A stretch of 64,000 nt of DNA from Clostridia bacterium (GTDB lineage Bacteria > Bacillota > Clostridia > Oscillospirales > Acutalibacteraceae). This document shows, in pieces, positions 2 to 13,840 of the stretch (position 1 is the first letter of the stretch; every line of letters starts with the position of its first letter). The notes under the pieces are model-generated. The model had not been told where the DNA came from. It ran no database searches and saw only the letters and a list, made by a program, of their open reading frames with translations. A program made the position numbers and the translations under genes. The stretch is from positions 1 to 64,000 of the forward strand of contig JAQXHF010000004.1 of assembly GCA_029007095.1 (NCBI GenBank), in the 5' to 3' direction.

Positions 2-319
2 TTACAGCTTGAAAAAGAAAAAGCCGCTAAGGCCAAAGAAAAACAGCGAATAGCTCTTGAAAAAGCTCGTGCCGCCGAAGCCGAAAGGGCAAGATTGGCA
101 AAAGAAAAAGAAAAGGCCAAGCTTGCAAAAATGAAAGCGGATCAACTTGAAAAAGAAAGAGCCGCAAAAGCAAAGGCAAAGGAAAAAGAGCGAAAAGCCA
201 AAGAAAAAGCTAAGCAAAAAGAGAAAGAAGCCCGTCAAAAGGCAAAGAACAAAGAAAAAGAAATTTTGAAGCGTGACAACGCGAAAACTGAATCATCAAA
301 CGAGGCAAATCAGGACTAA
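2..319 (+). CDS. C-terminal part of a Lys/Ala/Glu-rich (coiled-coil-like) protein, truncated by window edge
   Basis: Frame 2 is open from the window edge to TAA at 319; translation LQLEKEKAAKAKEKQRIALEKARAAEAERARLAKEKEKAK... is low-complexity K/A/E. Confidence 0.6.
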   Translation, partial: LQLEKEKAAKAKEKQRIALEKARAAEAERARLAKEKEKAKLAKMKADQLEKERAAKAKAKEKERKAKEKAKQKEKEARQKAKNKEKEILKRDNAKTESSNEANQD

Positions 320-346: not shown

Positions 347-3300
347 ATGTTCGGTAAAAAAACGGAAAGGATAATAGTGTTGATACTCAGCATTGCCGTG
401 CTGTTGTCATCGACAGGTGTACTGCCGTCTCTTGCGGCAGACGCATCCGAATTGTCCTCGTCGTCCGTTTCCGAGTCAACCTCCGCTGAAATATCACAAG
501 AGGGCGGATCTGTCACGACTACTCAGATTTCGCAGGAGGGCGGCTCGCTCAACACTCTGTCGGGTGAGGGAACTTCGGACAATCCTTATAAGATTGCAGA
601 TGCCAACGATTTTCTTGCAATGCAAAACATCATCAACGATACTTCAAAGTCCGATAAGTATTTTGAATTAACCTCCGATGTTGATCTTTCCTCTGTTAAA
701 GCTGATGATTTCAATTCAAACGGTGTTTACGGCGGCTCGTTAATTTCAGTTGACAAAGCATTGGCTAAGGCATCAAAAAATGTCGGATTTAAACTTGACG
801 GTAACGGACATAAAATTATCGGATTGAATGTTTCGTCTGACGATAAAAACGGTATAGCTGTTTTCGGTTACATCAATTCAACATCTTCTGTGTCAAACAT
901 TGTGTTTGAGACTCCTGCTGTCACTTCAAGCGCAGATACGGCTTCTATAATAGCTGTTGTTTCCGCAGAAAATGACGGTACTATTTCTAATGTAACCGTA
1001 AATTACCCTGTGCTGACTGCTGTTTCTGCGAAGTATGCCGGCGTAATTGCCGCAGTTAACAGAGGTACTGTTATCAACTGTACCGTTAAGGGTAAAATTG
1101 CAAATTCAGGCACAGCAACAAAGGATTCACACACCGTAAGCGCGTCGGGCGTATGCGGTGCTGTTGTCGGTTATAACAGCGGAAAAATTACTTCTGTTTC
1201 CGCGATAAATGTCGGTATTTATATCCCTGAGGGCGGCAATTCCGTATGCGGCGTTGTTGCCGGCAGAAGCAACGGAACAATAACTAACAGTATAGCTACC
1301 GGCGCTATATCCGGCGGTGATTCCAAATCGGTAGCCGGAGGAGTTGTCGGTGAAGCCGTTACTCCTGACAAGAATGATAATAAATTAAGTATAACAAATG
1401 TATATGTGCTTACAGCAATATCAAAGTCGGTTGTAGGAAATGCTGTTATCGGAGCTAACGGAACCTCCGATATGTTAAAGGATTGCTATTGGTCAAGCAT
1501 TGTCAGTGGCAGAAATACAACCGTTGATTTTGCCGGAACAGGTATTAACGATCTTTCGTTCACTTCGTACAAAACCGTATGCGTAGGAAAGTCTGTTGAG
1601 CTTAAATCTAATGACCTCGGATTCAAATGGGGTAAAGCAAGCTTTTCTGATACCTATGGTTACAGAGCAAGCGGAAAAAGCGTAGAGCTTATCAATAATA
1701 AGAATTCTGCAACAGTTAAAGGTACTGTGCAGGATAGCGTTTCGAGTGTGGTTTATAATGTCGACATTATGCTGCCGTCTGAAGTGGGAGCGGGCGACGG
1801 TTCGGTTAAGCTTGTTCAGGCTTTGAAAACCGCTGTTTTAGTTCTTCCGAAAGGCGTTTCGGGCGACGGTACAGAAAAGAATCCTGTCGAGATTTCTACC
1901 GCAGGTGAATTGGCTTTAATTGCAAAAGTTCCCTATATGAACTATAAGCTCGTTTCCGATATAACGCTTACCTCGGTATCACCGTTTGAATTCTGCGGAA
2001 CTATCGACGGAAACGGACATACGCTTACTGTTGACGGACCGCTATTCTCTACCGTTTACGGTTACGAGGAGCAAACCGCTAATGTTAGAAATATTAAAAT
2101 TGTTGTTTCCGAAGAAATAAACTCCGCAGTTCTCGGAACGGCTGCCAATGCAAAACTTTCGGGTGTGCAGCTTGTACTTGCACAGAATGTGGTAGCTCGT
2201 TTAAGCTCAAAGACGGGTGTACTTCTTAATTCTGTTAACGGTGCTTCTGTTATAGATGACTGCCATGTTTCGGCTGACATTATGGTAATGGGTGATAAGG
2301 CCAAAGAAATAGGCGCGTTTGCAGGTTCGGTTGACGGAAACGGTGCGATTATTACAAACAGCGGCGTTAATACCGTAATTAAATCGGACAAGAATTCGGT
2401 ATTTGATTCGGTTTCCGGATTTATAGGAAGCGTTAATGCAGATAATACGACAATATCGAATTGCTATGTAACGGGATCGGTTGAAGCCGGAAAATTTGCG
2501 TTTATCGGCAAAACTACAACTAATATAATTAAGGTTGAAAATATAATTTGGAATAAGGGCGGAGAGAATTCTGCTCAGTCGCCGGTTGATTTTACAAATA
2601 AAACTGCCTTTGATGAGAAGCAGTTTTCCATATGGCATTTTAATTTGACCGGCGGAGCTTTCTTTACAGGCAAGGGCGGCAAGTTCATAGCTGATTTACC
2701 TCAGATAAAAGCCTTGCAGACTGCCGACAAAGATGATTTTACGGTTAATTTTGATTCCGAAGTCATAAACGCTTCTGTCAATATCGACAGCGGCAAATTA
2801 GTGCTTAATGTTTCAAGAGCCGACGGAGCGGTTACTGTCGCTAACAGTCCGATTACCATAACTGAAAATAAAACAGGACTTTCTGTTTCTCTCAGCGTTT
2901 CTAACGGACTTGACAAGGATTCTGACGGCAATTACATAATCGCTTCCTCATATGACCTTGCATATTTGAGCGAAAATATCAATGAATATTCCGACTCAAA
3001 CTTCATTATGTCTGCTGATGTCGATATGTCGGAAATAGGCGATTTCAAGCCTATTGGCGGAACGGACGCGTCATTCAGCGGTGTTTTTGACGGAAACGGT
3101 CATACAATTTTAAATCTCAATGTTAACGGAACTTCAAAATCAGCGCTTTTTGCTACTCTTGATTCTGCTGTCGTTAAGAACTTAACTTTCAAAAATGCTA
3201 AAATCAATGCAAAAGGCAGTTATTCGGCTGTTCTTGCAGGTCAGGCTGTCGGCAATACAGTTATTAAATCTGTAAGTATATTAAACTCACAAATAACCGC

Positions 3301-6300
3301 AGACGATTTATATTCAGCGGCTTTGGTCGGTTCTGTTAATTCAGAAAGTGAAGCGGTTATATCGGATATAACTGTTTCTGATACCGTTCTGCTCTCATCG
3401 GCAGGTTTTGTCGGTGGAGTGGCCGGACGCGCCGACGGTAATGTTGCTTTCGCCAATTTGACTCTTATTAATCTCAATGTCAGCGGGGCGCAAAATATAG
3501 GCGGAGCGATAGGTGCCGCCGACGGCAAAGTAAAATTATCTTCGGTTTCTGTTTCAAACTCCGATATAAGCGGTATATCCGATGTCGCAGGTTTGGTTGG
3601 CACATCAGGCTCTGAAACGGTAATTTCAAATGTAAAACTCATATCGTCGTCTGTTTCTACGGTCGGCAATGATTCGTCCTATGTATCGGGAGGTATTTCG
3701 GCTTCAAGCGCAGCCGATATTTCAAATGCGTCTGTTGATAATTCTACTGTAAAAGGCGGTATTGCCGGCGGTATAGTCGGAAGATCTACCGGTGACATAA
3801 ATATCAATAATGTAAAAGTATCCGATACGGCTGTTTCTGCTGAGGGAACAGGTACGGTTGCGGCCGGAATTTTGGCTGTTCATAATTCCGGTGGAACTGC
3901 CTCTGTTTCAAATGCAAAGTTATCGTCTGATTCTTCTGTATCCGGTGCGGCAGTCAGCGCAGGAATTGTCGGAGACTGCTCCGGCGAAACTTCATTTTTA
4001 AATGTAAAAGCTTCTGTTTCTCTTGCCGATATTAAGGGAGATATGACAGCAAGCGCCGTTTCTGCTGCCGGAATAGTCGGTAAGATCGGTGTTAAGGCTA
4101 TAAATAATGTAAAACTTAATAATGTTAAGGCAATGGGTAATATCAGTTCTGCGGCTTCGGTTGGCGGAATAATCGGTTGCATTAAAAATACCGATAACGG
4201 TTTTGATTCAAAGCTGCCGCTTATCAACGGTTGCGTATCTTCCGTTACTGTTTCTTCTAACGGTTTGGATTCCTGCGGTTTGATAATAGGCGCAGTTGAA
4301 AATAATGTACTCAATTCAGAAAATATCGCTTCTGCCGTTCAAAATGCCGTGATTTCGACAGCAATGTGTGAGTTAGGCGCATATTCGGCAATAAGCGGTA
4401 TCAGCGGTGATGTATATGATGTTAACAATCCGGGCGGCAAGCCTGTATCTCCGTCTGAAAATGTATTGAAAAACACAGATGAAATTGAGATAACAATAAG
4501 TAATTTGCCTCAGATTAACGGCTTCGTTTTCGATTCAAACAGCGGTTGGGTTTCGGAGTCGGAAGAAAGAATTGCCGTAATAGACAGTACGGAAAATACC
4601 GTTAGGCTTAAAGCTCTGCGTAAGTCTGAGGTTATGATTGTCACTTATTATATCAGCGAAGACGACGCCGAATTCAGTATTCCGGTAGGATTTAAGGTTA
4701 AAGCCGATCTGCGCGATAAGTTGGAGGGCAGCGGCACAGAAGCAGAACCGTATCTTATCTCAAATGCATATGAGCTTGAAACAATGGCTCAGTATGCGGG
4801 TGATAATGCATATTTTGTTCTGACAGACGATATCGTGCTTAATGATTCCGATTTTGCTTTCGGCGGCGGATTCTATAATGTCGGAAACGGAATTGTAACC
4901 ATAGGCAACGCTGAACAGAAATTCACAGGCCATTTCAGCGGACTTTATAACGGCAAGATACATACAATCAGCGGACTTCGCACAGGTAATAATACTTTCG
5001 GTGGACTTTTCGGAGCGATCGAGTCTGCCGTAATTTCCGACTTGATAATTGATTATGCACAGACAGAGGGCGAATATTATTCGGGAATCCTTGTCGGTTG
5101 TGCTGATAACTCGACGATAACCGGAGTTACTGTTAAAAATTCTAAGGTTAACTCTGTTCAGGGCGGCAGCTTCGCCGGTGTAATTGTCGGATTAGGCAAT
5201 GATGTAAACATTGAAAATGTAACTGTTGAAAACTGCTCTGTGACTGCGGCTGTAAATTCCGATTCGTCAACCTTTGAAGCTGTCGGAGGAATTGCCGGTC
5301 AGCTTTGCGGAAGTATAAACAAAGCTGTTGTCAATAATGTTAAGATTGAAACTTCGTGTGCGGCAGGTGGTTTGGTCGGCGTTATTCCGAACGGAGATAA
5401 CTCCCTTGTCATTTCTGACGCTGAATCGGTTGCCGATGTAAGAGCAGATTATGCAGGCGGCGTAATCGGTAAGCTCAGCAACCCTGCGTTGCTCAAAATT
5501 TCGGATGTTTCCGTTGGCGGCTGTATCGAGGGGTTTGAAAGCGGAGCGGGTATCGCCGCTTCCGTAACGGCCGAAAGCGTTGACTTTGATGTTTCAATGC
5601 TGAAAACGCCAATGATAAAGCATACGGTTATTGCCGCCGATATCAGCGGTAATAATAACGGTATTGTAATCGGTGAAACATCTGCCGACATCTTCACAGA
5701 CGCCGTTAATAAAAATACAGATGTATTCACGAATGTATATTACTCATCATATCAGAATTCTGCCGGTGTATTCGGAACAAACGAGATAAATTCGTACCAA
5801 AGCTATGAATATATCGTCAATGACTTAAATGATGTTAAATATTCGGAGAACGGTGAGAAGTATAATTCCGTTAAGCTCGGAGCTGATTACAAAACTCTTA
5901 ACGATGACAGCTTTACTGTCGGAGACTTTGATAGTTGGAAACAGCTCGTGATTGGTGATGTTACTCTTAATTTGACTGACATTACCTGTAATCAGCCTGA
6001 TACCGTCGTGTACGATTCCGATAATTCGGCTGTGCGTTTAATAAGGAAAGCCGATAATGCGGTGCTTGAACTTGTTTATGATAACGGATTGAAAGTTTCC
6101 ATACCGATTGAGGCTGACTTTAAGCTTGCAGGAAACGGAACAAAGGATAGTCCTTATCTGATATCAAGCGCAGAAGATTTTGCTGTTATGCAGCAGAGCG
6201 CGGTCGGCGGAAATGCGTATTATGCGCTTACATCAGACATAAATCTTAATGATGTTCAGCCGTCCGAGTCTTTTGACGCTAACCTTGACGGAAACGGATT

Positions 6301-7585
6301 TGTACTTTACGGTTATACCGGTAAGCCGTTGTTCGGCTCAGTAACCGGAAGTATCGTAAATGTAGGCTTCGCAGGATTTGCAATATCCGACAGTGAGAGC
6401 AAGTCCGTCGGCGCGGTTGCAGAAATTCTTAATGGCGCTGTTATCAAAAATTGTTTTGTTATCGCTGATGTTTCAGCTAACTTAAATAATCAGGACGCAG
6501 GTATTCTTGCAGGACGCGCGGTTAACGGCACTTATATTGACGGTTGCCTTACAAGCGGCAGGGTTGTATCTAATAAAGCAATTTCTGTCGGCGGCATAGT
6601 CGGTTATGCGCTTAATTCCGAAGTTTTAAGATCAGCATCTACCGCTTATGTTTACGGCGGTAAGTTTGTCGGCGGAATTGTCGGTGAAGCTGATAATTCT
6701 TCGCTTGATACGGTTGTATTTGCAAATATGACGGAATCCGTAAGCGGTACTGCGGCCAATATTGCAGGAAATGCTGTTGGCACAAAGATAACTGATGCTT
6801 ACTTTGATTCATCAGCTTCTGTTTCTGATAAATTTGTCGGTTCGGGTAGTGCGGATACTTCGTATGCGCTTTCAACAGAACAGCTTGTTTCTGCGAAAAT
6901 CAGCGGATTTATTTCAAACGGCGGCTATCCTGTACCAAGCGGCTTGATATCGGAAAGCAATTCGTCTGCTTTTGATACAGGCGTAGCGTTTGCAGCTTTG
7001 CCGGTAAGATATCTTTACGGACTGAATTCAGGAACCGCAAGTAATTATACAGATATTAAAGTAGAACCTGAGGTCAACGGCAACAAGGTGAACCTTGTTA
7101 TAGGCGGCGGATATAAGCTTACTTTGGAGCCTGTATCCGATTACACCGATTCTACTAATGAAATTGCAAGATATTCAAATCCGTCCGACATAAATTCACT
7201 TTCACTCAGCTATAAGCTCAGCGGAAAAGATGACGGTGAACTTAAAAATTCCGTAATTTCAGTAATGCTTAGAAGCGGCAAGGGCTTGGGTTCAACCTCG
7301 TTCGGACTGTTTACTAAGCTTAACGCACAGTCAAAACAGATTTCAGATATTGCTGTTGCTGACGGAGTGCTTTATGTGTCTGTCGGCGGTGCGGCCGAAG
7401 ACCGAGATTATACTGTTTCTGCCATCGACGGTAACGGAGTACAGCTTCAAGTCACCGAAATTAACGGTGAGTATGCTGTAAGCGTGGGCAGTTCCGAAAC
7501 AGTTTCCCTGAGCATAGAGATCGGCGGTAAAGCAGATCAGCCGTGGGGACTGCGTTCAATATGGCGAAGTATTACGAATAAATAA
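347..7585 (+). CDS. Giant secreted GLUG-motif / beta-helix repeat surface protein (2412 aa)
   Basis: RBS gcggagg; N-terminal signal peptide (IIVLILSIAVLLSSTGVLPSLAADA); many G-G-[IVL]-[VA]-G GLUG-like motifs (AGGVVGEA, AGGIVGRS, GGIIGCI) and DGNGH motifs. Confidence 0.85.
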   Translation: MFGKKTERIIVLILSIAVLLSSTGVLPSLAADASELSSSSVSESTSAEISQEGGSVTTTQISQEGGSLNTLSGEGTSDNPYKIADANDFLAMQNIINDTSKSDKYFELTSDVDLSSVKADDFNSNGVYGGSLISVDKALAKASKNVGFKLDGNGHKIIGLNVSSDDKNGIAVFGYINSTSSVSNIVFETPAVTSSADTASIIAVVSAENDGTISNVTVNYPVLTAVSAKYAGVIAAVNRGTVINCTVKGKIANSGTATKDSHTVSASGVCGAVVGYNSGKITSVSAINVGIYIPEGGNSVCGVVAGRSNGTITNSIATGAISGGDSKSVAGGVVGEAVTPDKNDNKLSITNVYVLTAISKSVVGNAVIGANGTSDMLKDCYWSSIVSGRNTTVDFAGTGINDLSFTSYKTVCVGKSVELKSNDLGFKWGKASFSDTYGYRASGKSVELINNKNSATVKGTVQDSVSSVVYNVDIMLPSEVGAGDGSVKLVQALKTAVLVLPKGVSGDGTEKNPVEISTAGELALIAKVPYMNYKLVSDITLTSVSPFEFCGTIDGNGHTLTVDGPLFSTVYGYEEQTANVRNIKIVVSEEINSAVLGTAANAKLSGVQLVLAQNVVARLSSKTGVLLNSVNGASVIDDCHVSADIMVMGDKAKEIGAFAGSVDGNGAIITNSGVNTVIKSDKNSVFDSVSGFIGSVNADNTTISNCYVTGSVEAGKFAFIGKTTTNIIKVENIIWNKGGENSAQSPVDFTNKTAFDEKQFSIWHFNLTGGAFFTGKGGKFIADLPQIKALQTADKDDFTVNFDSEVINASVNIDSGKLVLNVSRADGAVTVANSPITITENKTGLSVSLSVSNGLDKDSDGNYIIASSYDLAYLSENINEYSDSNFIMSADVDMSEIGDFKPIGGTDASFSGVFDGNGHTILNLNVNGTSKSALFATLDSAVVKNLTFKNAKINAKGSYSAVLAGQAVGNTVIKSVSILNSQITADDLYSAALVGSVNSESEAVISDITVSDTVLLSSAGFVGGVAGRADGNVAFANLTLINLNVSGAQNIGGAIGAADGKVKLSSVSVSNSDISGISDVAGLVGTSGSETVISNVKLISSSVSTVGNDSSYVSGGISASSAADISNASVDNSTVKGGIAGGIVGRSTGDININNVKVSDTAVSAEGTGTVAAGILAVHNSGGTASVSNAKLSSDSSVSGAAVSAGIVGDCSGETSFLNVKASVSLADIKGDMTASAVSAAGIVGKIGVKAINNVKLNNVKAMGNISSAASVGGIIGCIKNTDNGFDSKLPLINGCVSSVTVSSNGLDSCGLIIGAVENNVLNSENIASAVQNAVISTAMCELGAYSAISGISGDVYDVNNPGGKPVSPSENVLKNTDEIEITISNLPQINGFVFDSNSGWVSESEERIAVIDSTENTVRLKALRKSEVMIVTYYISEDDAEFSIPVGFKVKADLRDKLEGSGTEAEPYLISNAYELETMAQYAGDNAYFVLTDDIVLNDSDFAFGGGFYNVGNGIVTIGNAEQKFTGHFSGLYNGKIHTISGLRTGNNTFGGLFGAIESAVISDLIIDYAQTEGEYYSGILVGCADNSTITGVTVKNSKVNSVQGGSFAGVIVGLGNDVNIENVTVENCSVTAAVNSDSSTFEAVGGIAGQLCGSINKAVVNNVKIETSCAAGGLVGVIPNGDNSLVISDAESVADVRADYAGGVIGKLSNPALLKISDVSVGGCIEGFESGAGIAASVTAESVDFDVSMLKTPMIKHTVIAADISGNNNGIVIGETSADIFTDAVNKNTDVFTNVYYSSYQNSAGVFGTNEINSYQSYEYIVNDLNDVKYSENGEKYNSVKLGADYKTLNDDSFTVGDFDSWKQLVIGDVTLNLTDITCNQPDTVVYDSDNSAVRLIRKADNAVLELVYDNGLKVSIPIEADFKLAGNGTKDSPYLISSAEDFAVMQQSAVGGNAYYALTSDINLNDVQPSESFDANLDGNGFVLYGYTGKPLFGSVTGSIVNVGFAGFAISDSESKSVGAVAEILNGAVIKNCFVIADVSANLNNQDAGILAGRAVNGTYIDGCLTSGRVVSNKAISVGGIVGYALNSEVLRSASTAYVYGGKFVGGIVGEADNSSLDTVVFANMTESVSGTAANIAGNAVGTKITDAYFDSSASVSDKFVGSGSADTSYALSTEQLVSAKISGFISNGGYPVPSGLISESNSSAFDTGVAFAALPVRYLYGLNSGTASNYTDIKVEPEVNGNKVNLVIGGGYKLTLEPVSDYTDSTNEIARYSNPSDINSLSLSYKLSGKDDGELKNSVISVMLRSGKGLGSTSFGLFTKLNAQSKQISDIAVADGVLYVSVGGAAEDRDYTVSAIDGNGVQLQVTEINGEYAVSVGSSETVSLSIEIGGKADQPWGLRSIWRSITNK

Positions 7586-7620
7586 AAGTTGTTTTATTAA
7601 ATCAAGAGAGTAGGTGAACT

Positions 7621-8247
7621 ATGCGAAAGAATTTCCAACTTTACAAGACGATAATACTTGTTGCGGCTTCTGCAATAACCTTGATTGCGGTTACTTTTGC
7701 ATGGTTCGGAGTTTCAAATAACGGCACTTTTGAAAGTTTCAAAGGCGTTATCGAGGGTAATCCCGTAAGCGTTGATTTCTATCAGAAGGGAACCGATGAT
7801 GAATATGCCGCTCTTGACGGAGATATAACGCTTAACAATTTTGTCCCCGGAAGCTATAATTGCTATAAAATGCTTGTAACTACAAAGACGGCTGATCCTC
7901 TTAAACTGTCATTCACGATAGACGATTTACCGAGCGATATGCCCGCGGCGCTCAAAAGTGCTGTCCAGATTAAATATACCCTTGTTAAAGACTCATCCGA
8001 CGGTAGCTCACAAACCGTAATTTCCGAGTCAAACGGATATATCTCGCTTGACGAATATACAGACGGAGTGATTTTCGGCGGAATTGACCTTACTCAATAT
8101 CAGAGCGCAAAAGGCGATATTTTTACCATATATTATGAAATCGGTCTTGATCCGAACAGTTCTTCCGATATTTCATTGTTGAGCTCTTCGCTCGGATATG
8201 TTAATATCAGCGCACAGAGAGTAGGTATTGCCGACGGAGGCAACTGA
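7621..8247 (+). CDS. SipW-dependent-type signal peptide protein (TasA/camelysin-like)
   Basis: N-terminus TIILVAASAITLIAVTFAWFGVSNN has the TM plus AWF pattern typical of SipW substrates. Confidence 0.75.
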   Translation: MRKNFQLYKTIILVAASAITLIAVTFAWFGVSNNGTFESFKGVIEGNPVSVDFYQKGTDDEYAALDGDITLNNFVPGSYNCYKMLVTTKTADPLKLSFTIDDLPSDMPAALKSAVQIKYTLVKDSSDGSSQTVISESNGYISLDEYTDGVIFGGIDLTQYQSAKGDIFTIYYEIGLDPNSSSDISLLSSSLGYVNISAQRVGIADGGN

Positions 8248-8852
8248 TGCAAAAGGTAAAGAAAGTTTTTTCGGCAGTAATGGCGGTTATAACCGCGGCT
8301 TTATTCATCTTCGGCTTTGCTGTTTTTGTTTCTGTTATGAGAGCGGCGGGCGGTCAGATTCCGTCTGTCCTCGGATACAGCGTGATGCAGATTCAGACTG
8401 GTAGCATGGAGCCTGAGTATGAAATCGGCACGGTTATTGTTACTAAAAAAACAGACGCGGTTAAACTGAAAAAAGGCGATGTAATCAGCTTTTATTCAAC
8501 AGATTCTTTAATCAGCGGTAAGGTGAATACTCACCGCATCGTTTCGGTAAGATATGACGATGAGGGTTATCCGATTTTTATGACAAAGGGTGACGCTAAT
8601 CAGGCTGCCGATAGAATGGAAGTCGATTCCGAAAGAATAATCGGTAAGGTCATATTTAATCTCGGAACGGTCAGCGGATCGGTTATAAGCGTTTTACAGA
8701 ATCCGAAGGTCATTTTTTTCCTGATTGTGTTGCCACTGATTTTCATAACTTTTGGTGAAGCCGTAAATCTTGTAACGATGATTGCCGCCAACAGAGAAGC
8801 AAAAAAATTTGGAAGCGACAAAAACGATAATGAAAAGCCAAATGACAAATAA
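8247..8852 (+). CDS. Signal peptidase I, SipW/ER type
   Basis: QTGSMEP (Ser) and NTHRIVSV (His) boxes, TKGDAN box, N- and C-terminal TM segments. Confidence 0.85.
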   Translation: MQKVKKVFSAVMAVITAALFIFGFAVFVSVMRAAGGQIPSVLGYSVMQIQTGSMEPEYEIGTVIVTKKTDAVKLKKGDVISFYSTDSLISGKVNTHRIVSVRYDDEGYPIFMTKGDANQAADRMEVDSERIIGKVIFNLGTVSGSVISVLQNPKVIFFLIVLPLIFITFGEAVNLVTMIAANREAKKFGSDKNDNEKPNDK

Positions 8853-9345
8853 GCAAAAATTAAATATATTTTTTACTTCCGTTGTAATTTTTATTGCTGT
8901 GATTGCGGTCGGGTTTGTATTTTTCCCAAAGTTGGTCAATTACAAAACCTATTCCATTCAGACAGGAAGTATGGAGCCGAATATCCATAAGGGCAGTATG
9001 ATTTATGTAAAGGAATGTAAAAATTTTTCCGACTATAAGGTAGGCGATGTCGTCACATTTACCGATTTCGGAAAAACTAAGAGCTTTACTCACCGAATTG
9101 TTGCAATCGACGAGGAAAATCAGATGTTTACAACTAAGGGCGACGCAAACGAAGAAAATGATCTTGAACCTACATCGGCAATGTTTGCGGTCGGTAAAGT
9201 AGAATTTGCAGTACCTTATCTCGGCTATGTAGCGACTTTTTTGAATAACACGGCGACTAAAATTTCAATAGCTGTAATTTATATAGCATGGCTCGCCATA
9301 GAAATTGAAATCTATATTACGGAAAGGAAGAAGAAATATGAGTAA
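8830..9345 (+). CDS. Signal peptidase I, SipW/ER type (second copy)
   Basis: Start chosen at ATG 8830 (the track start at 8782 is TTG); IQTGSMEPNIHKGS, FTHRIVAID, TTKGDANEEND; overlaps upstream gene by 23 bp. Confidence 0.85.
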   Translation: MKSQMTNKQKLNIFFTSVVIFIAVIAVGFVFFPKLVNYKTYSIQTGSMEPNIHKGSMIYVKECKNFSDYKVGDVVTFTDFGKTKSFTHRIVAIDEENQMFTTKGDANEENDLEPTSAMFAVGKVEFAVPYLGYVATFLNNTATKISIAVIYIAWLAIEIEIYITERKKKYE

Positions 9346-9988
9346 AAGAATAATACTGATGATAGCTTCCCTTGCCGTGATACTCGGTCTGATGAATTGC
9401 GGCAGTTCATATGCCTGGTTTGTAACCGCGGCTAAGAAACAGCAGACAATTTCTGTTTCTGTTGTCAGCAGTACCAATACCGCATATCTTACCGATTTGG
9501 ATTCTGACGAGTCAAACATAATAATTATGCAAAAGGATAATCTTGTAAGTCTTGACGGCAGAGAGGCTGTTCTGAAAATTGAGAATAAATCAACTACCGA
9601 TACACAGCTGAGAATTGCGGTCGAATACACGAGCTGCAAGGACGGAAAGCCTGAGCAGGTTCGATATTCGGCAAGCGACGATGATATAACAGTTGAATTT
9701 GCCAATAAAAATTGGGCTAAAAATATCAACGCCGGCGGTGATTGCTATTTCTATTATGTCGGTGATAATTATTCCGGCGATGAAATTGATAACCTTGACT
9801 CGGTTGCTTCAATAGGTTCTGATGTTTCTGAAATAGAAGCTATCAAGAGTATTTATTATAATGAAGATGTTTCTGACAACTATTCGGGACAGAAGATAAA
9901 TGTTAAGGTTATTTTTGAATCAAAGCAAGCTGACAATGTTACATGGTCAACTGTTGATGAATACGGCGTTTCAGGCGTAGCGGAGTGA
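9338..9988 (+). CDS. SipW-dependent-type signal peptide protein (TasA-like)
   Basis: MSKRIILMIASLAVILGLMNCGSSYAWFVTAAKKQQ; AWF motif; RBS upstream of 9338. Confidence 0.7.
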   Translation: MSKRIILMIASLAVILGLMNCGSSYAWFVTAAKKQQTISVSVVSSTNTAYLTDLDSDESNIIIMQKDNLVSLDGREAVLKIENKSTTDTQLRIAVEYTSCKDGKPEQVRYSASDDDITVEFANKNWAKNINAGGDCYFYYVGDNYSGDEIDNLDSVASIGSDVSEIEAIKSIYYNEDVSDNYSGQKINVKVIFESKQADNVTWSTVDEYGVSGVAE

Positions 9989-9992
9989 AAAA

Positions 9993-10520
9993 ATGATGTC
10001 TAAGGTAAAACCTGCAAACATCTTATTTAACATTTTTATGATTATTGCCATGCTTGCAGCCGGTTTTGTCGGATTTAATCTTGTAACCGGAACAAAGGGT
10101 TATGCGGTAGTCAGCGACAGTATGAAAGAAACGCTGAATAAAGGCGATGTTGTGTTTGTCCGTGAGACTGATTTCGACAGCTTGAATGTGGGTGATGTCA
10201 TTACCGTCAAAGTTGGCGATAAGGGATATTTCACACACCGTATAGTTGATATTGATTATGAATCTCAAACGGTTAAGACTAAGGGTGACGCAAATCCGTC
10301 TAACGATCCGGGCAGAACGGAAAGTAAAATGATAGTTGGAAAAATGTGGTATAAACTGCCGCTTGCAGGATATCTTTCAATATGGTTAGGCGGCTCGACA
10401 GCGAAAAAAGGAATTATAATTCTTACTGTTGCGGCTTGTGTGCTTATAGCGCTGAACTCAATTATAGCTGCAAAGAATAAAAATCGGAGAAAGGAAGATG
10501 GCGGAAATGAGCAAAACTAA
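9993..10520 (+). CDS. Signal peptidase I, SipW/ER type (third copy)
   Basis: YAVVSDSMKETLNKGDVVFV, YFTHRIVDID, KTKGDANPSNDP; divergent Ser box. Confidence 0.85.
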   Translation: MMSKVKPANILFNIFMIIAMLAAGFVGFNLVTGTKGYAVVSDSMKETLNKGDVVFVRETDFDSLNVGDVITVKVGDKGYFTHRIVDIDYESQTVKTKGDANPSNDPGRTESKMIVGKMWYKLPLAGYLSIWLGGSTAKKGIIILTVAACVLIALNSIIAAKNKNRRKEDGGNEQN

Positions 10521-11139
10521 AAAAATACTTGCCTGCATAGCCTCGCTTACGCTTGTTTTATGCGTCGGATATTTTTCCGTTATGTCTCCGACCTCCGCAT
10601 GGTTTTATGACAGCGGCGTTATCGACAGCGGCGACAGCTTCGTTTTCGGCAGCCTTTCGGTTAATTCAAGATTTGTTTCGGACAAGAGCGTTAGCTTTGA
10701 AGCGGCTACGGATTTTACCGATGAAAACGAAATCTTTTTTGACGATATGGTTCATACCGATACCGTTAATGTTTCTAATGCGGGCAATATCCCTGCAAGA
10801 GTTTATATTGATGTTAAAAATGTCGGTGAGTCAAAGGGACTTCGTTGGTTTGCATATACGGACAGCGTACTCGTTGATTCAAGTGTAAAAAAGACACTTA
10901 AAAATGTGCTTGATTCGCTTGATGATAACGGATTAAGTTCATACAATATCGGAGCTGATTCCAACAGCGGTTGGTATGTTCTTCTGCAACCGGGACAGTC
11001 AGAGCAGATTAAGATTGCCACTTGGATTCAATATGATGATGTTAAGAATGAGCTTCAAAAAAATAATTCTCTGAGCGGATATGATGTTGAAATTACAATG
11101 ACCGCAACTCAAGATATTGACGGTGCAATGCAACGATAA
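10498..11139 (+). CDS. SipW-dependent-type signal peptide protein (TasA/camelysin-like)
   Basis: ACIASLTLVLCVGYFSVMSPTSAWFYDSG; downstream VNVSNAGNIPARVYIDV resembles the TasA-like core; alternative start 10507. Confidence 0.75.
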   Translation: MAEMSKTKKILACIASLTLVLCVGYFSVMSPTSAWFYDSGVIDSGDSFVFGSLSVNSRFVSDKSVSFEAATDFTDENEIFFDDMVHTDTVNVSNAGNIPARVYIDVKNVGESKGLRWFAYTDSVLVDSSVKKTLKNVLDSLDDNGLSSYNIGADSNSGWYVLLQPGQSEQIKIATWIQYDDVKNELQKNNSLSGYDVEITMTATQDIDGAMQR

Positions 11140-11160
11140 ATTAAGTCGGGGTGACAGTAA

Positions 11161-11784
11161 ATGTTTCAGAAATTTAATAAAAAAGCAATAGCTGTCATCG
11201 TAGCGGTTGTTGCAGTTATAGCGGCTGTCGGTGCAACGCTTGCGTGGTTCTCCACCAAAAGCTCTGTAAGCGAAAAATTTACGCTTTCACCGATAAAAGC
11301 GACGGGTGAAGTTTATTTCGATGTTAACGGCGAGAAAAAAGAAGCTTCAAAGTTTGCTGACAACGACGGACTGTATATATTAAGTCTTGATAAAAATGAT
11401 GATAACTATATCGGAAATCTCAGAATGAATGTGAAGCTCAGCGGCAAAGCCTGTGTGCGTGTTCGTTTAGAATTTGAATGGAATAACGCTGACGGTTCGG
11501 TGGCTCAGTATTCTACATCGGTTCCGTATGTTTTCGGTGACGAGTGGTACGATAACCGCAACGAAGATTACTGCGTTTATTATATGGAAAACAACGGCAA
11601 AGCGAGCTTTGACAATTTGCCTGTAATAAGCGGATTTGATGAAAGCGAATTTGACGATTTCGGCTTTGACAGCGGGAATTATGTGAGGACGTCGATTGAG
11701 GTTGACGCGGTTCAGGTTAACCGATATCCGCAGCTTTGGGGTATTAAAAATTTCCCATGGGAAGTTGATGAAAATGGCAAATAA
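11161..11784 (+). CDS. SipW-dependent-type signal peptide protein
   Basis: AIAVIVAVVAVIAAVGATLAWFSTKSSVSEKF; AWF motif. Confidence 0.7.
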   Translation: MFQKFNKKAIAVIVAVVAVIAAVGATLAWFSTKSSVSEKFTLSPIKATGEVYFDVNGEKKEASKFADNDGLYILSLDKNDDNYIGNLRMNVKLSGKACVRVRLEFEWNNADGSVAQYSTSVPYVFGDEWYDNRNEDYCVYYMENNGKASFDNLPVISGFDESEFDDFGFDSGNYVRTSIEVDAVQVNRYPQLWGIKNFPWEVDENGK

Positions 11785-12661
11785 AAAGAAAAAGCCTGCG
11801 GCAGGTAAGTCTGTCGCAGGCAAAAATAATTCAGACAAAAAAGTTAATAAATCGGCGTCCGTTTCAAGTAAATCTGCACGCAAAAAGGCTCTCAATGATG
11901 AAAAAGAAGCGCTCAAAGTAATTAAAAAGAATGAGAAAGCTCAGCTTCAAAAAAAGAAAAAGAGCGATGAAATAAGAAAAATGCGTGAAAAGAAGCAAAA
12001 TGCCGAAAGGAAGATGGCAGAAAAAGAAAAATCAAAGACTGAGAAAATCAAGAAAAGAAAAAGCTTCAAGAAAAAATTAAAAAAATTCGGTAAAAAAATT
12101 AAATACTATACAAGCAAGGATTTCTTGGGTTCTTTTAATTATGTCAGGATTTTTCTTTTTATAATTCTTCCCGTATCGGTCATAGTTGCAGGCTGTGCAG
12201 CCGTTTCACAAAGCGTTGCGGTTAATGTTCCGAGCGAAATAAGAAATTTTGAATTTACGGGCAGAACCGAAAGTGAGCTTACAGCCTTAAAATCAGAGTT
12301 TAACGAGGGGCAAAAGCAGGCTCTTATAGATTCGACAGATGCAAAAGGTTCAGGCAAATTTGATTTTTATATAGACAAAACAATTTATATTGACGATGAC
12401 TTTTCTGATTTTGATTTATGCTTCGGCAATCCGAACAGCGACTGCATTTTAATTGCAACGATTTACGATTCGGACGGAAATGTTATTTACCGTTCGCTCG
12501 GAGTTGAACCGGAAACCGAAATCAAAAAAGCTTCTCTTTTTAACAGCATACCCTACGGTGAACAAAAAATGAAGGTATGCGTCAATGCTTATGACAGCGA
12601 AACAAATGAGAAAATCGGTACAAAATATGCTAAAATTAAGCTCGCGGTTGGTGTTCGGTAG
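11774..12661 (+). CDS. Membrane-anchored protein with ~115-aa Lys-rich cytoplasmic region, one TM and an extracellular domain
   Basis: MANKKKKPAAGKSVAGKNN...KKKLKKFGKKIKYY then TM VRIFLFIILPVSVIVAGCAAV; ectodomain paralogous to the next gene; start 11774 chosen over track start 11696. Confidence 0.7.
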   Translation: MANKKKKPAAGKSVAGKNNSDKKVNKSASVSSKSARKKALNDEKEALKVIKKNEKAQLQKKKKSDEIRKMREKKQNAERKMAEKEKSKTEKIKKRKSFKKKLKKFGKKIKYYTSKDFLGSFNYVRIFLFIILPVSVIVAGCAAVSQSVAVNVPSEIRNFEFTGRTESELTALKSEFNEGQKQALIDSTDAKGSGKFDFYIDKTIYIDDDFSDFDLCFGNPNSDCILIATIYDSDGNVIYRSLGVEPETEIKKASLFNSIPYGEQKMKVCVNAYDSETNEKIGTKYAKIKLAVGVR

Positions 12662-13147
12662 ATGAATAAAAAGAAAAGAATAATACTTATTTTATTATCT
12701 GTCGTCGCTTGCGCCGTTATAGTTTCAATCGTTCTTGTTTTTAGCGGTGCGGCGGATAAAATCAGATTAAACGCGGCTGCCTCCGGCGAGGTTAAGGACG
12801 GACTTCTGCCAGTTGAAGGAATTGAGCATATTACCGATGTTCCCAACGGTGAAATCAGATATTTGATTAACAAAAAAGTATTTTTTGAAAGTCCTTATTC
12901 AATGGGGAATTTTATGTTTGAGAATCCGTCAAGCTGTGGATATGCGCTTGTTTTTGTAATATATGACGGCGACGGCAAGCAGATTTATACATCGCCAAAA
13001 ATCAATCCCGGACAGTATTTGGAAAAGGACAAGCTATCCTCTGTGCTGAGTTCGGGAGTATATGAATGTTCATATTCTGCTCAGGCATATTCAGACGATG
13101 AATTTGTCGGGAAAATAAGCGGAGTAATAACGCTGAGTATCGGCTGA
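12662..13147 (+). CDS. Membrane-anchored/secreted protein paralogous to the ectodomain of the preceding gene
   Basis: N-terminal TM (IILILLSVVACAVIVSIVLVFSG); INKKVFFES..NFMFENPSSCGYALVFVIYDGDGKQIYTSPKINPG matches IDKTIYIDD..DLCFGNPNSDCILIATIYDSDGNVIYRSLGVEPE upstream. Confidence 0.65.
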   Translation: MNKKKRIILILLSVVACAVIVSIVLVFSGAADKIRLNAAASGEVKDGLLPVEGIEHITDVPNGEIRYLINKKVFFESPYSMGNFMFENPSSCGYALVFVIYDGDGKQIYTSPKINPGQYLEKDKLSSVLSSGVYECSYSAQAYSDDEFVGKISGVITLSIG

Positions 13148-13159
13148 CGGGGTGAAACC

Positions 13160-13840
13160 ATGAATATTACTGAAAAAATAACAGAGCTTTTGAAATCCGA
13201 GGGAGCGGCAGATGTCGGATTTTCAAAAATAGGCTGCGGACCTTTCGGTGAATCTACATATGCCGTCAGTATAGTTATAAAACTGTCAGAAGCGGTTGTA
13301 GACGAAATAGATGCAGAGCCGACGCACACATATTTTCATCATTACAGGACTGTCAATGCATATATCGACAGACTTTGTCTCAGAGTTGGATTCCTTTTGG
13401 AGCAGAACGGTTACAAATATATTCCGATTGCGGCTTCCCAGAGTATAAATAAGGACGGCTGGAATTATGAGGGCAGATTCTCTCATAAAAAAGCGGCGAG
13501 CCTTGCAGGACTTGGGGGAATCGGAAAAAACGGATTGTTTCTGCATAAAGACTACGGACCGCGCGTAAGGCTCGGCACGGTGCTGACGGACTGCAATTTT
13601 GATATTAAACTGTCGGAGTACAAATCCCCGTGTATCGGCTGTGACGCTTGTGTAAACGCCTGCCCTTCGGGAGCTATAAAAGGTAAGCTTTGGCAGGAGG
13701 GAATGGACAGAAGCGAAGTGCTTGATCCGGCGGCTTGCAGTAATTATATGAAAAAAGCTTTCAAGCATATAGGCAGAGGCGCGGTGTGCGGAATTTGTAT
13801 GAGCGTTTGTCCGATCGGCAAAAAAATTAGCAGAGAATGA
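13160..13840 (+). CDS. Epoxyqueuosine reductase (QueG)-like double [4Fe-4S] protein
   Basis: CIGCDACVNACPSGAI and CGICMSVCPIG clusters; GLGGIGKNGLFLHKDYGPRVRLGTVLTD typical of QueG-like proteins. Confidence 0.75.
   Translation: MNITEKITELLKSEGAADVGFSKIGCGPFGESTYAVSIVIKLSEAVVDEIDAEPTHTYFHHYRTVNAYIDRLCLRVGFLLEQNGYKYIPIAASQSINKDGWNYEGRFSHKKAASLAGLGGIGKNGLFLHKDYGPRVRLGTVLTDCNFDIKLSEYKSPCIGCDACVNACPSGAIKGKLWQEGMDRSEVLDPAACSNYMKKAFKHIGRGAVCGICMSVCPIGKKISRE

Follow-up and report, generated by a model that had tools for sequence, protein, structure and literature searches.

Among the closest described systems, TasA polymerises through donor-strand exchange (PMC9674648), and in the sipW-bsaA system SipW is required for the export of BsaA, which forms filaments, the regulator being a two-component system (PMC7395162). 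These known SipW-dependent fibres take shape outside the cell, and no cytoplasmic motor is known for them. A further kind of system, CoCoPALM, is named in one paragraph of the main text of Bell et al. 2024 (PMC11090510). In the literature searched, the name occurs only in that paper and its preprint, the system is characterised nowhere, and no paper pairs DUF2357 with SipW. The first-pass annotation of the DNA analysed here took the exact arrangement to be probably uncharacterised. This holds in so far as the literature searched contains no characterisation, but the kind had already been named, in that paragraph of the main text of PMC11090510. The locus is real, well conserved and largely undescribed, a detailed variant of a kind that has been named once.

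The window, by which we mean the whole stretch of 64,000 nucleotides analysed, starts at the first base of contig C4 (G000:C4:1) in a draft genome of 146 contigs. It carries ten co-directional genes on the + strand between 347 and 13147, with a spacing of -23 to +35 nt. The tight spacing, single direction and positions of the named genes were all as first annotated, but the count of nine genes was wrong, as the order given with it already contained ten. The starts of SipW2 and of the K-rich protein, Kanc, were corrected from the sequence to 8830 and 11774. Scans for promoters and terminators gave the same result as shuffled sequence.

These ten genes make up just the 3' half of what is a larger locus, a point that the first annotation had missed. 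In relatives, the genes 5' of the giant gene encode an EAL-like protein, the K-rich membrane protein Kanc0, AWFa and/or AWFb, SipW0, an McrB-type NTPase and a DUF2357 coiled-coil protein. In the genome studied, contig C79 carries the EAL-like protein, Kanc0, one AWFb, SipW0 and most of the NTPase. It ends within the NTPase gene, and C4 starts within the K/E-rich coiled-coil (DUF2357) gene; from the relatives we infer that C79 joins C4. The K/E/A-rich open reading frame at 2..319 (+), at the position of the relatives' McrC-like DUF2357 gene, is the 3' tail of the gene preceding the giant in relatives, with 27 nt between its end and the giant. A search of the rest of this assembly for the DUF2357 half found nothing. 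It seems probable that the full locus, with about 15 genes and of the CoCoPALM kind, builds a cell-anchored extracellular fibre. Calling it an expanded TasA-type locus, as was first proposed, is too simple, as the AWF proteins fail the TasA/camelysin Pfam model and an McrBC-like pair, an EAL protein and a fourth SipW lie beyond the contig edge.

The annotation of three SipW-type peptidases in the window was borne out. All three scored above the TIGR02228 cut-off of 51.85 bits, at 84-103 bits, and each has the Ser (SM) and His (THRI) motifs by pattern check. SipW1 (8247..8852, +; 86 bits) falls in a clade defined by position across loci, while SipW2 (8830..9345, +; 102.6 bits) and SipW3 (9993..10520, +; 83.9 bits) each form one clade of their own across loci, with support of 0.97 and 0.98. 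The SipW0 and SipW1 clades include positional counterparts in other families. Since the clades follow position, specialised SipW peptidases are suggested, and the four SipW proteins probably differ in their substrates.

The likely substrates are four AWF proteins, each with a basic N-terminus, then a hydrophobic stretch, then A-W-F. AWF1 (7621..8247, +; 208 aa) has a SipW-type signal peptide whose signal region, by sequence, ends VTFAWF, and its orthologues were aligned. AWF2 (9338..9988, +), AWF3 (10498..11139, +) and AWF4 (11161..11784, +), likewise aligned, are also SipW-type signal peptide proteins. The SipW-substrate model TIGR04088 was touched by AWF4 only, under its cut-off. A cut before W would put the AWF aromatic residue at P2', as at the TasA site discussed in PMC10269814. 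The first annotation had called for structure prediction of the AWF proteins, and the predicted models of AWF4 (pLDDT 85) and mature AWF3 (pLDDT 82) are mainly beta, of beta-sandwich type. As annotated, then, four AWF proteins are present which, judged by their signal regions and predicted models, look like SipW-processed beta-sandwich subunits.

How these subunits relate to known matrix proteins is a matter of faint similarities. No AWF family reaches the cut-off of a TasA, camelysin or BsaA model. AWF4 scored 13.2 bits against PF12389 (TasA/camelysin; cut-off 22.5), 2 of 16 AWF2 family members touched Peptidase_M73 (best E 5e-4), and the best AWF4 relative scored 26.9 bits (E 3.5e-6) against the BsaA model TIGR04090, for which the cut-off is 60. 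By sequence, the AWF4 relatives appear to be distantly similar to BsaA, a family of biofilm-matrix proteins. Searches of PDB folds with AWF3 and AWF4 gave no strong match: TasA (5of1) was the ninth match of AWF3, a weak one (E 0.04, TM 0.38), and was absent from the top 50 of AWF4. PDB profile searches with AWF2, AWF3, AWF4, AWFa/b and anc2 found no meaningful relatives. On these fold searches the link to TasA is a lead and no more. With signal peptides removed, AWF2 and AWF4 prove homologous (profile E 9.6e-8); as this was the sole significant pair among the AWF families, the idea that one subunit is present in four copies was abandoned.

The AWF proteins and the giant might instead cover the surface as a non-polymeric coat, or form an adhesin complex, with Kanc and anc2 holding it in place. 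The presence of four different AWF proteins with only partial mutual homology would suit such a coat, as would the poor match of their folds to those of known fibre subunits. The characterised SipW substrates, however, make fibres (PMC7395162, PMC9674648), and in the models of both AWF3 and AWF4 the stretch right after the predicted cut is of low confidence, as a free donor strand could be. We consider a coat very unlikely and favour a fibre.

Such a fibre would need a base in the membrane. Kanc (11774..12661, +) has a K-rich cytoplasmic N-terminus with 45 K/R in residues 1-110, one hydrophobic segment and an outer beta-rich domain; the K-rich protein occurs in all 18 genomes of the genus, including the one studied. 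The membrane protein anc2 (12662..13147, +), the last gene of the conserved unit, is a paralogue of the outer domain of Kanc, and the two match each other at E 2.7e-7, so that their description as paralogous anchors holds as regards their paralogy. One genome of the genus has a further, isolated paralogue of the Kanc/anc2 domain that stands apart from the main locus (G150:C57; L067 984-1466). Kanc0 and AWFa/b have in common, by eye, a W[LM]EGxDxxC-like stretch, and Kanc0 may be an uncut, anchored paralogue of AWFa/b.

A gene for a QueG-like protein (iron-sulfur, epoxyqueuosine-reductase-like by sequence) lies at 13160-13840, 12 nt past anc2. It adjoins anc2 in some relatives and other genes do so elsewhere, which places it outside the unit. 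More generally, a QueG-like gene follows anc2 in one group and an opposite-strand gene in another, and this change of neighbours indicates that the conserved unit ends at anc2.

The giant secreted repeat protein (347..7585, +; 2412 aa) has orthologues at the same position, ranging in length from about 2000 aa to more than 5600 aa. It had been described as a GLUG protein. It is indeed a large repeat protein and matches Peptidase_M26_N above the cut-off (Pfam, E 1.3e-8), but Pfam Glug (PF07581) did not match it even at E 1, and a GLUG-like regular expression occurred twice where 0.5 instances were expected, which is not convincingly above chance. The protein has no recognised anchor. Its C-terminus carries the motif WGLRSIWRSITNK (7544..7582, +), and WG was found in the last 30 residues of every one of the 31 giants examined, against 0.27 expected. 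In the C-termini of the giants from L079 to L113 a WG[LIV]-type motif stands past the final beta-strand, and the remaining length is highly variable. The C-terminus of AWF4, WGIKNFPW in the window (11737..11760, +), resembles this end: 29 of 30 AWF4 C-termini have W[GND][ILMV], in the form W[GND]I..[LF]PW. At a guess, the WG end of the giants is a putative docking signal.

On the cytoplasmic side, a profile of the NTPase finds the structures of E. coli McrB (E 5.7e-8). The protein on C79 and those of relatives carry the motifs GISGTGKT and NxD, the latter as GTINNDDS. In TM-type loci a strong hydrophobic segment lies near residue 60, followed by a stretch that is heptad-like by eye. Eight aligned NTPases are 72-94% identical to the first and are far more conserved than the AWF proteins. 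The McrC-like partner matches DUF2357 (E 1.5e-9 in a relative) within its first 478 aa, beyond which its sequence is that of a K/E/A-rich coiled coil. Pfam finds DUF2357 alone in those 478 aa, no nuclease was recognised among the locus genes, and phmmer of the DUF2357 half against the PDB returned no McrC. McrB-like/DUF2357 pairs without SipW, and outside SipW loci, were seen in L141 and L142, where the NTPase has a different, divergent N-terminus; the L141 genome (G238) has two such divergent NTPases close together.

McrB and McrC ancestry could indicate an anti-phage device, whose surface proteins would block adsorption or sense infection, and PMC11090510 predicts that the related CoCoNuT systems serve in defence. 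Yet the genes of the locus showed no nuclease domain, HEPN or methyltransferase, whereas CoCoNuTs, in the same account (PMC11090510), always replace a lost nuclease by a neighbouring one. The whole genus also keeps the locus, unlike typical defence islands. A role in defence is therefore, in our judgement, distinctly improbable, and we prefer to see the McrBC-like pair as part of a machine for surface assembly.

The EAL-like protein matches the EAL domain at E 1.8e-46, with several catalytic positions changed relative to the intact EAL proteins of related loci. Its sequence marks it as a catalytically degraded EAL protein. Two loci of other families (L137 10731-13022 and L143 11719-14010) have full-length EAL proteins with intact catalytic residues, adjoining NTPase and SipW genes. 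These proteins have an N-terminal part that is GGDEF-like by eye, a further link to c-di-GMP.

The first annotation had named a failure of co-conservation as grounds for giving up the locus; instead, the gene order recurred in the genus and in some 30 named loci. In the genus, wherever contigs were long enough, the order giant-AWF1-SipW1-SipW2-AWF2-SipW3-AWF3-AWF4-Kanc-anc2 was constant, and it persists in other genera of the family at protein identities of 20-35%. A single-protein AWF4 scan of the contigs of named genomes gave no match; a scan with the AWF4 alignment found 36 loci, most of them (about 30) with the same order, and some of their genes are uncalled because the simple ORF caller favours long reverse frames where the DNA is G+C-rich. 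This recurrence shows that the arrangement is not due to chance. The 36 loci come mainly from uncultured Clostridia, Oscillospiraceae and Ruminococcaceae, and the gut of ruminants or horses is the source of many. The cultured Bacilliculturomica massiliensis has a divergent locus (L112) with AWF2- and AWF3-like proteins past a large ORF.

The NTPase profile matched in 30 of 297 genomes of the order (about 10%) and in 21 of 392 of the class. In the phylum sample it matched the genome studied and no other (1/399), so that at this sensitivity the NTPase looks restricted to the class. Loci at the level of the order usually keep Kanc0-AWF-SipW0-NTPase-DUF2357, often with SipW1 and the EAL-like protein, and the genes after these vary. 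Among 150 genomes of the family, SipW-type peptidases were present in 19/19 with the NTPase and 60/131 lacking it (p 1.6e-6, kinship ignored), usually about 1 kb upstream of the NTPase where the NTPase is present. Of the seven of these 150 genomes with a strong AWF4, six also have the NTPase (p 1.2e-5, or 6e-4 minus the genus, kinship again ignored).

This distribution bears on whether the NTPase belongs to the fibre at all. The AWF proteins, SipW peptidases and giant might form a self-sufficient matrix fibre like that of TasA or BsaA, with the McrBC-like pair an unrelated neighbour. Neither TasA nor BsaA fibres have a known need of a cytoplasmic NTPase, and from family to family the cargo part differs, whereas the NTPase part stays the same. 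Against this, in every relative whose contig is long enough the NTPase and DUF2357 genes have SipW0/AWFb on one side and the giant on the other, the gap to the giant is just 27-44 nt where computed, SipW co-occurs with the NTPase in all 19 genomes, and the NTPase is anchored in the same membrane. We regard an independent fibre as unlikely. The reading that we favour, with reasonable though not strong confidence, is a SipW-processed, anchored fibre carrying the giant, with the EAL and McrBC-like proteins as its cytoplasmic control or assembly machine.

Under this reading, the AWF proteins would be exported by Sec and stay tethered via their signal peptides until cut by dedicated SipW peptidases. 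The freed beta-sandwich subunits would then polymerise, possibly by donor-strand assembly, on a membrane base of Kanc, anc2 and Kanc0. The giant would be carried on or at the fibre, docking via its conserved C-terminal strand and WG motif, and might serve in adhesion. On the cytoplasmic side, the membrane-anchored McrB-type AAA+ NTPase may gate or power assembly with the nuclease-less DUF2357 protein as its activator, the degraded EAL protein being a possible sensor of c-di-GMP. The specific proposal that a McrBC-derived membrane NTPase and a nuclease-less McrC-like activator drive or gate the assembly of a SipW-processed fibre under c-di-GMP control is tentative, and we put it forward as one possibility.

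If the McrB-type NTPase does take part, a module of restriction enzymes has been recruited for surface assembly, and Gram-positive bacteria would have an NTP-driven route of fibre assembly derived from it. The CoCoPALM prediction would then also become testable, as likely substrates, a membrane base and a displayed protein can now be named. With the NTPase in about 10% of the sampled genomes of the order and many loci from the livestock gut, the system may matter for colonisation there.

Compared with tapA-sipW-tasA of Bacillus subtilis, the locus has in common a SipW-type peptidase, an aromatic residue at the substrate cut and beta-sandwich subunits, but there are four types of SipW in place of one, and the AWF proteins have no Pfam match and a weak fold match to TasA. 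The sipW-bsaA operon of Clostridium perfringens similarly combines SipW with secreted matrix subunits, and its BsaA model is weakly matched by the AWF4 relatives; it has one SipW and lacks both a McrBC-like pair and a giant. McrBC of E. coli resembles the cytoplasmic part in its homologous AAA+ domain (McrB, E 5.7e-8) and in the DUF2357 partner, but it has NxxD, whereas the NTPase of the locus has NxD, is membrane-anchored and has no nuclease found with it. The closest likeness is to CoCoPALM as the main text of PMC11090510 presents it, although the AWF subunits, Kanc/anc2, the EAL protein, the giant and the WG motif are undescribed in that text. Four of its five features recur here: an NxD McrB-type NTPase, an N-terminal transmembrane segment with a coiled coil (FtsB-like in the published description), a coiled-coil McrC homologue (with DUF2357 seen in a relative and the coiled-coil tail alone in the window) and neighbouring signal peptidase genes, SipW0 adjoining the NTPase. 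The window thus probably shows the substrates and surface parts of a CoCoPALM.
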